This document shows positions 3,601 to 8,276 of a DNA stretch of 64,000 nt, piece after piece (position 1 is the stretch's first letter; every line of letters begins with the position of its first letter). The notes under the pieces are model-generated. The model was not told the origin of the DNA. It saw nothing but the letters and a program-made list of their open reading frames with translations, and searched no databases. This DNA is from Asterias amurensis (lineage: Eukaryota; Echinodermata; Asteroidea; Forcipulatida; Asteriidae), in assembly GCF_032118995.1 (NCBI RefSeq), contig NC_092650.1, positions 992,001 to 1,056,000 of the forward strand. Reading direction: 5' to 3'. The position numbers and the translations under genes are program-made.

Positions 3601-6600
3601 AAATTATTTTCCTTTTTGAGAAAGACTAAGCCTTTATGATAACTGATGCATTCAACAAGATTTAAACTTACATGTTTCTTTAGGTCATGACTTTTGCAGT
3701 CAACGTCATATCTGTAAGGATTAACCAATAAAAAGGGAAAGTTACAAACATGGATCACAATATGAAAATCCTCAAATATTCAACACCTGGTTTTGGTAAA
3801 TCAGTGCTTCAATTTGCCAAACAGACGTAAAAATCATTTTAATACGCAGTGCTTAAACAGCTCTTTATCACACTCGAGGGCACTTCAACAGGCTTGGTGC
3901 TTTTTTCTCCATGTATCTGGAGCTATGTTTGCATTATATGAGACATTTAGCATGTTAGATACATAAGAATACATGTATGTAATGGTTTAGAAGGTGCTGT
4001 GGTGCGATCTGCAACATCCATGCCAGACAACACCAGGGGAAACCCCTTCTCTTTTCGATAGTGTACAGGGTTTTTTTTCGTGCAAAAACACATTTGACCT
4101 GCTGCTTTACTACGTCCCATCAAAAAAGATGAAGCAATCATGGTTAAACGCCAAGCTCAAGGACACAAAAGTCCCGACCAGGACTCAAACCCACACTCCC
4201 CATAACATACATCAAAACAGTTTGCCTTTACTTACAACTCAAACTTCAGCCCCTGCCTCTCCTCAAAGAAGTAATCAACGACAAACTTCTTGACAAAGTT
4301 TGGGTTGAGGTTGTTCATGATGACTTCTGACCTCCCGAACTATTGACAACAACAACAACAACAAAAGTCCATGTTATCAACAATATTTTGAGTTCATCAG
4401 TTGGACAAATTTGTGTAGACATTTTCATAAATAGATTGCTGAACATTCTGTTTCTATGAACTTTTACAGAACTTCTGCTTTTAAAGGCACTGGACACTAT
4501 TGGTAATTTCTCAAAATAATTGTTAGCACACAAAGTTTACTTGGTAGTGAGCAATGAAGAGCTGTTGATAGTATAAAACATTTTGAGAAACAGTTTGTAA
4601 TTTGGGGGTACACATTTAGTTGGGAGGTCCTAGGTGTACGGTTTGTAATTGTGGCAATGTTGATAATTGTGAATGGCCCCAAAACCAAATTAATATTTAC
4701 GTATGACAATATTATATCTATTTTTTACTCTGAACATATCTACCTCTTTGTATGCAGTACTTCCCATAGCTTGAGTATACATGACACATACTGAAAAAAA
4801 GAGGCAATGAAAGAAACAAATTAAAACACAGCAAAATTTACCACATAAAATTTAACCTCAAGGTAAACGCTTAAAAGACCAAAAAAGAAAATAATAATCT
4901 CAATACTGGAGGAAGTTGTTTGACTTTGTCAGGTGCTAGAAGTGCATTCTAAAGTTTTTTTTTTTTTTTTTAATTATTATATTTTATTACACCTCCACAA
5001 CAGCACAATTAGTGCCGATAACAGGATGAATAGCAAACGAGTAGAAATCTTACGATTTAGATTTGGGAGGAAAAACCCAAATAGGGATTTAAATGAGATC
5101 CCCCTAATCTCAGAAGGCTGGACGGCTAATTCAAGGTGAGGGCTACACTTAACTGATTTGGACTTACAGGGCTATATTCCCCTTCATAGTTCGTATTTCG
5201 TAAGGATGTATGCATGGGTATCATCCACTAGGAGCATGGTTTATAGAGCAGAATGCACTACCTTCCAAACTCTTCTGGTTAAGTGCCTTACTCGAGGCTG
5301 GTCAAGTGTCACGACCGGGTATCGAACCCACACTCTGCTGCTGACAACACCAGAGCTTGGGTCCAGTGAACTAAACTGCTTGTCCACGACACACCACTTT
5401 ATGCTTTGAAGAATTGCTTGATAAAATCATTCCCTGCTTATCTTTGGAACAGGCATACAAATCTTATCAAAACCTTATGATGACCAAGTCTCCTCAAGAT
5501 GTTGAGTTAAAAACTACAGAAAATTTGGGAGAGTCTTACTCTCTACTAGCCAAATACACTAGGGGGTTAGGGTTAATATGTGCAAACATAAAGCTCAACA
5601 AAGTTTCAAGGCCAACAAAATACAGAATGAAAAGGAAAGTAAAAGGAAATATGGACGAAGGCATGATACATTAAGTGTGGAATGAAACTGTGTAGGCATT
5701 AGCAACATGCTGTATCTCATAATGCAGCAATTATGATATTATGCATTGCTTTGAAGCGCTATCACGATTAAAATAGTAAGTCTGGATGTATGTGTACAGT
5801 ACACAAAACTAGTTTGCTGCAAAACACAATACATGTACTTCAGCATGGAGCATTTTTGTACAAGATACAACTCTGTTGCAAAATCAAGATACAATGTTTT
5901 TGCACTGCAAGATGATAAAAACTAGATTAAGGGACAATTTCTTTAATTGTGACATCATACTCAGCTACTCTCTACCCAGGTCTGACATTTTGGACGTCAA
6001 AATGCATGCTAAAAAATTGTGCATACTAACTGTCCCCAAAGGTCTCCCATTGGGTCAATGCAAGTAGATGTGACAAAAAGACAACTTGTTAATAAGTGAA
6101 TGTTAGATGGGCAACACGCAATGGAACAAGTTAGACGTTACAAAATGTATCTAAGTCTACTTTGCTCACTGAAAATCTCCCAACTTGACCAAACATTTTA
6201 AACCAATCATGCACTAGGGGTGGACTTCACGATAGAGTTAAAACTACTCTTGCAGAGATAGGACTAGCCTTAGGTTTGTAATAAATCCTAAAGAGTCATA
6301 GAACTAGTTCTAAGACAGGACTATCTTTGTGATATTGACCTCAGTACAACTAATATGAGTAAGTGTGACTAAATGTGATTCACCAAATTTATCCCAAGTT
6401 CTTCTTTCCTTCAACACTATGAGGATGATACCGCATACCAAAATAAACGGACGCTTCATACAAGAGGGAGATGTTACTGTAAAAACTCCTGAAAAGTCTT
6501 GACTGTCTACCATGCTAAATAATAAATGACAAGTGCCTTTTGCATTCACGTTTACAGAGCATTTCAATTAAAACACACTATGCAACTTACTTGGATCAGA

Positions 6601-8276: not shown

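Follow-up and report, generated by a model that had tools for sequence, protein, structure and literature searches.

Homologous mutually exclusive exons are a well-known type of alternative splicing, in which tandem exons of equal length and phase, with conserved borders, encode homologous peptides of one structural element of the protein (Pillmann et al. 2011, PMC3228551; human events, PMC9741552). The copine exon pair described here, 2a and 2b, shares these features; its gene and site, loop 1 of a copine C2A domain, did not turn up in the literature searches described below, it has only 13 whole codons, and its use in transcripts is predicted. A second close system is the exon pair 4a/4b of OGDH, which alters calcium sensitivity and whose intervening intron is likewise short and holds a U-rich stretch. 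The branch points of OGDH sit 25-41 nt away from the 5' splice site (PMC7969005); in the copine intron the likely branch point and the 2a donor are some 170-180 nt apart.

Splicing has been connected with C2A domains in other proteins as well. The alternative C2A of dysferlin reportedly arises from an alternative first exon, and that of Piccolo is said to involve an optional short insert, unlike the two homologous internal exons found here. To judge from the titles of these works, splicing of dysferlin yields calcium-dependent and calcium-independent C2A binding (Fuson et al. 2014, cited in PMC6770723) and the C2A domain of Piccolo is switched through alternative splicing (Garcia et al. 2004, cited in PMC4709825). 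Literature searches on copine or CPNE splicing, exclusive exons with C2 domains, echinoderm copines and sea urchin exon duplication gave no copine exon pair among the matches listed, which include few subscription journals and no supplements, and the words copine and CPNE are absent from the main text of PMC9741552. The copine C2A loop pair is plausibly a new case of this splicing type.

We analysed a 64,000-nt stretch of the Asterias amurensis assembly (C3:992001-1056000; assembly of 491.5 Mb in 23 contigs), hereafter called the window, and all genomic comparisons were made within this one assembly. The gene carrying the exon pair is a copine on the minus strand, with nine exons in the window, from 8276 down to 667, the second of which has the alternative versions 2a and 2b. 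The spliced model of 233 amino acids contains two tandem C2 domains and aligns, over its residues 18-232, to BONZAI 1 (E 6.6e-38), a plant copine of known structure. The C-terminal Copine/VWA domain is represented further downstream, on the same strand, by four PF07002 matches above threshold (C3:989430-971843), which are presumably spliced to the exons of the window; one of them crosses two stops, as is expected where a match passes an exon end. By resemblance, we assign the gene provisionally to the CPNE5/8/9 subgroup. In Pfam, a 55-aa fragment with 2a matched no family and a 55-aa fragment with 2b matched the C2 family only, below the cut-off (12.2 against 22 bits). The features of the gene in the window are the following:

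8200..8276, minus strand: exon 1 coding part, 77 nt, ending TCATGCAG and then GTTGGT; an acceptor-like tttttttag ends at 8286
6829..6869, minus strand: exon 2a, 41 nt, AG/GT borders, donor CTG/GTAAGA
6632..6828, minus strand: intron between 2a and 2b, 197 nt, first half T-rich, nearest AG before the 2b acceptor at -45
6591..6631, minus strand: exon 2b, 41 nt, AG/GT borders, donor CAA/GTAAGT
4744..4790, minus strand: exon 3, 47 nt, opening with Val or Ile according to the choice of 2a or 2b
4236..4339, minus strand: exon 4, 104 nt, carrying a premature stop when both or neither of 2a and 2b are included
3672..3711, minus strand: exon 5, C2A
3025..3101, minus strand: exon 6, C2A
1928..1988, minus strand: exon 7, link between C2A and C2B
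1195..1298, minus strand: exon 8, C2B loop 1
667..813, minus strand: exon 9, C2B; the Copine-domain matches are beyond the window

The intron between exons 6 and 7 also holds a minisatellite at window positions 2029-2372, composed of 8 copies of a 43-nt unit with 96% matches.

On re-reading the sequence, we found the coordinates, lengths, phases, splice borders, peptides and Val/Ile switch of the pair to be as the original prediction had described them. The two exons are tandem, both 41 nt long and of equal phases; their peptides are identical at 7 of 13 residues and their DNA at 25 of 41 nt. Exchanging one for the other replaces six residues of the loop, plus the Val/Ile neighbour at the exon 3 junction, and leaves the rest of the protein identical. 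We consider it likely that the pair arose by an old tandem duplication of the exon for copine C2A loop 1, and that both copies have been kept as functional, mutually substituting alternatives. Measured by the scheme of Pillmann et al., 2a and 2b agree in length (41/41 nt), splice-site pattern and reading frame, and their similarity is 39/66 and 39/68 of the self score (BLOSUM62, 13 whole codons). By default, that method asks for a similarity of 15% of the self score or more and for exons of no fewer than 15 amino acids, a limit at which 2a and 2b sit. In its control on the Drosophila X chromosome, such features are found in just 90 of 16180 neighbouring exons whose splicing is not mutually exclusive (PMC3228551).

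The reading frame ties the two exons to each other. Exon 1 joined to the remaining exons through 2a, or through 2b, is open over 698 nt in the window. Inclusion of both brings in a stop at offset 22 of exon 4, and omission of both one at offset 62 of the same exon, each upstream of five more junctions within the window, and therefore single use is the only route to an intact protein. It had been claimed that the pair must be used singly; the frame logic, and the presence of a homologous pair of equal phase and non-triplet length in C2A loop 1, bear this out, while strict exclusion stands as a prediction. Each productive mRNA would then hold exactly one of the two exons, and mRNAs with double inclusion or skipping would be led by the exon 4 stop to nonsense-mediated decay. 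The same stops, placed before five further junctions, would also suit a pair that serves mainly as an off-switch, with 2a as a poison exon. We regard this as very unlikely, given that a conserved loop peptide would be superfluous in a pure poison exon, yet 2a appears to be constrained in its amino-acid sequence, as set out below.

The similarity of the two exons is beyond chance at the protein level and unremarkable at the DNA level alone. In fact, among 329 open candidates of the form AG-41nt-GT/GC in the window (147 on the minus strand, 182 on the plus strand), the best unrelated BLOSUM62 score was 14, against 39 for 2a and 2b. In a scan of any frame the next best hit was the C2B loop of the gene itself at 1268 (27 and 34), all others scoring at most 25. 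The DNA-level local score of the pair is 30, and when 30 unrelated 1.8-kb stretches of the window were compared with 2b, one scored as high.

No further intact copy of the exon was found within the 64-kb window. A stretch of intron 2 (6133-6164, minus strand) is similar to 2b, has a broken frame and scores 30; as the best of nine exon-by-intron comparisons this is equalled by 1 of 200 shuffles, but also by 1 of 30 unrelated pieces taken from the window. On this weak indication, the stretch is perhaps a decayed third copy. Whole-genome searches with a 37-aa query (2b) and a 29-aa query (2a) matched only at this gene and near 28.52 Mb on contig C3. Such queries are weak for an exon as short as this one, because the corresponding exon of a paralogue on contig C2 escaped both.

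Comparison of 2a with 2b gave pS 0.81 and pN 0.23 (Nei-Gojobori), with dS incalculable through saturation, on 13 whole codons with 8.7 synonymous sites in a pair that was picked for its similarity. Third positions differ at 6 of the 13 codons. In simulations of neutral decay to 16 differences (20000 runs each), an open frame scoring 39 or more was obtained in a fraction of 0.00145 of the runs starting from 2b and 0.00115 of those starting from 2a. At least 7 identities were retained in 2.3% (from 2b) and 3.7% (from 2a), and the identity count of 7/13 is weaker evidence than the alignment score. As a consequence of the near-saturated pS, the limited pN and the 0.12-0.15% obtained under decay, both copies look constrained and old, and we regard a function of the pair as very probable.

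The acceptors of the two exons are of unequal quality. The 2a acceptor has 12 pyrimidines of 20, the lowest of the nine internal exons scored (13-18 in the others), and is preceded by AGs at -24, -32 and -37. By a human scoring table, the donors of 2a and 2b are similar (8.81 and 9.29) and that of exon 1 is lower (6.04). These acceptor features could mean that 2a is little used, and together with its loss of Asp4 and Lys10, found in the other C2A loops examined, they are what would be expected if only 2b were in use and 2a were a lingering duplicate. The intact borders and frame of 2a, and the substitution pattern and decay simulations given above, argue against such a relic, which we hold to be unlikely. 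Under the duplication reading, 2b, with the better acceptor and the loop nearer to other copine loops, would be the default exon, and 2a, with its weak acceptor, would need activation in some tissue or stage.

Conserved aspartates serve calcium binding in the C2 domains of copines, which associate with acidic lipids, phosphatidylserine among them (PMC10968396). We compared nine loops in all, one C2B loop being partial (positions 5-13). Asp6 and Asp12 are present in all nine, and from the spacing in synaptotagmin and PKC we assume these to be the likely calcium ligands. The earlier claim that the loop aspartates are kept in both versions holds for these two positions and fails at position 4, which is Asp in 2b and in three other C2A loops (those of the paralogue on contig C2, of the copine-like gene at C3:28.52 and of BONZAI 1) and Asn in 2a. 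Position 8 changes from Phe in 2b to Leu in 2a. Position 10 is Lys in eight of the nine loops (2b and five more of this genome, and two of BONZAI 1) and Glu in 2a only. The replacement of Lys10 by Glu, next to the membrane-facing tip, should lower the affinity for acidic lipids. With Lys10 to Glu, Phe8 to Leu, Asp4 to Asn and both Asp6 and Asp12 kept, the 2a loop would be expected to weaken or change the way in which calcium drives C2A onto acidic lipids, and not to abolish calcium binding. In work cited in PMC10968396, C2B is critical for membrane association and C2A dispensable, and so for the protein as a whole the loop swap might have little effect. If real, the swap would be a compact natural experiment on the role of copine C2A loop 1, in which the remaining protein is constant.

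The original prediction had also proposed to search the intron between 2a and 2b for pairing or branch-point constraints, and this search, covering motifs, folding and a candidate helix judged against background, gave no dedicated exclusion device. In a functional pair the exclusion might be hard-wired in the intron: the branch point could crowd the 2a donor, as it does in OGDH, or base pairing within the RNA could loop out one exon. The T-rich stretch directly after the 2a donor speaks for such a device. Branch-point-like motifs precede the 2b acceptor at -29 and -16, which is about 168-181 nt from the 2a donor; extra motifs of this kind at -113 to -185 are located beyond the AG at -45. In the OGDH type the distance between the branch point and the upstream 5' splice site is below about 50 nt (PMC7969005), and by motif and nearest AG the copine intron is not of this type; with some 170-180 nt between the 2a donor and the likely branch point, such a device is unlikely.

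For pairing, the best candidate was a helix of at most 20 nt with one mismatch, with arms at 6716..6734 and 6479..6497 (minus strand), that could loop out 2b. Against shuffles it appears unusual, its length being reached by 1 of 100 and its energy by none of 40, although it was the best among several intron pairs tried. Random places of the window match its length in 9 of 120 cases and its energy in 4 of 40, and the helix is within the background of real window places. Its arms with their flanks (91 nt each) match only themselves genome-wide. The local fold energy is ordinary (z -0.87), pairing between introns with 60-nt pieces gave nothing clear, and Rfam returned no matches in window positions 4500-8400. 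Taken with the AG at -45, these results make exclusion built into the intron quite unlikely, and the simplest reading is that the choice of acceptor is regulated and frame-shifted mRNAs are removed.

Two further candidate signals were set aside. Donors of U12-type introns follow a consensus of their own, and the donors GTTGGT, GTAAGA and GTAAGT are unlike it, which speaks against a mismatch with the minor spliceosome. A TGC near the acceptor, considered as a sign of neural exons, occurs within 23 nt of 5 of 9 internal acceptors and is uninformative.

A foldback-like element is present in intron 1 at 7211-7364 (40-nt arms, 75% complementary), and a related stretch is found in intron 2 at 6213-6340. 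One lies on each side of 2a and 2b, and they might base-pair over the two exons through arms of 32 and 18 nt. By eye, a stretch near window positions 20-220 also resembles this element.

The age of the duplication can be approached through the other copines of this genome. The paralogue on contig C2 has an exon 1, a lone 41-nt exon 2 (DLIDKDMMSKSDP, C2:26258648-26258608) and an exon 3, with phases as in the window gene, and no second copy of exon 2 was found between its exons 1 and 3. This lone exon with the same phases counts in favour of the duplication reading. Identities are 25 of 41 nt between 2a and 2b, 24 between 2a and the paralogue exon and 26 between 2b and the paralogue exon, with 7 of 13 amino acids in each comparison. 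Since the three exons are nearly equidistant, the pair may match the paralogue in age, by a measure that is coarse and saturated. We offer tentatively, as something rather doubtful, that the exon duplication predates the split of the two copine paralogues and that the splice switch has been kept since then, giving a standard and a charge-reversed C2A sensor with different membrane docking at a given calcium level. Near 28.52 Mb on contig C3, another copine-like C2A is intronless across the exon 2 boundary. In the Copine-domain genes of contigs C6 and C18, one tblastn search with the C2 domains of the window gene, covering 30 kb each, gave no clear C2 exons or loops. In total, sixteen Copine-domain matches are distributed in five gene neighbourhoods on contigs C2, C3, C6 and C18.

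Apart from the copine genes, the first 10,000 of the 16,427 bases of contig C23 look mitochondrial. Their frames are open under table 5 as well, so that the genetic code does not point to one phylum. They are cox1-, cox2-, atp6-, cox3- and nad4-like on one strand and nad2- and nad1-like on the opposite strand, in an order that we presume to be sea-star-like.
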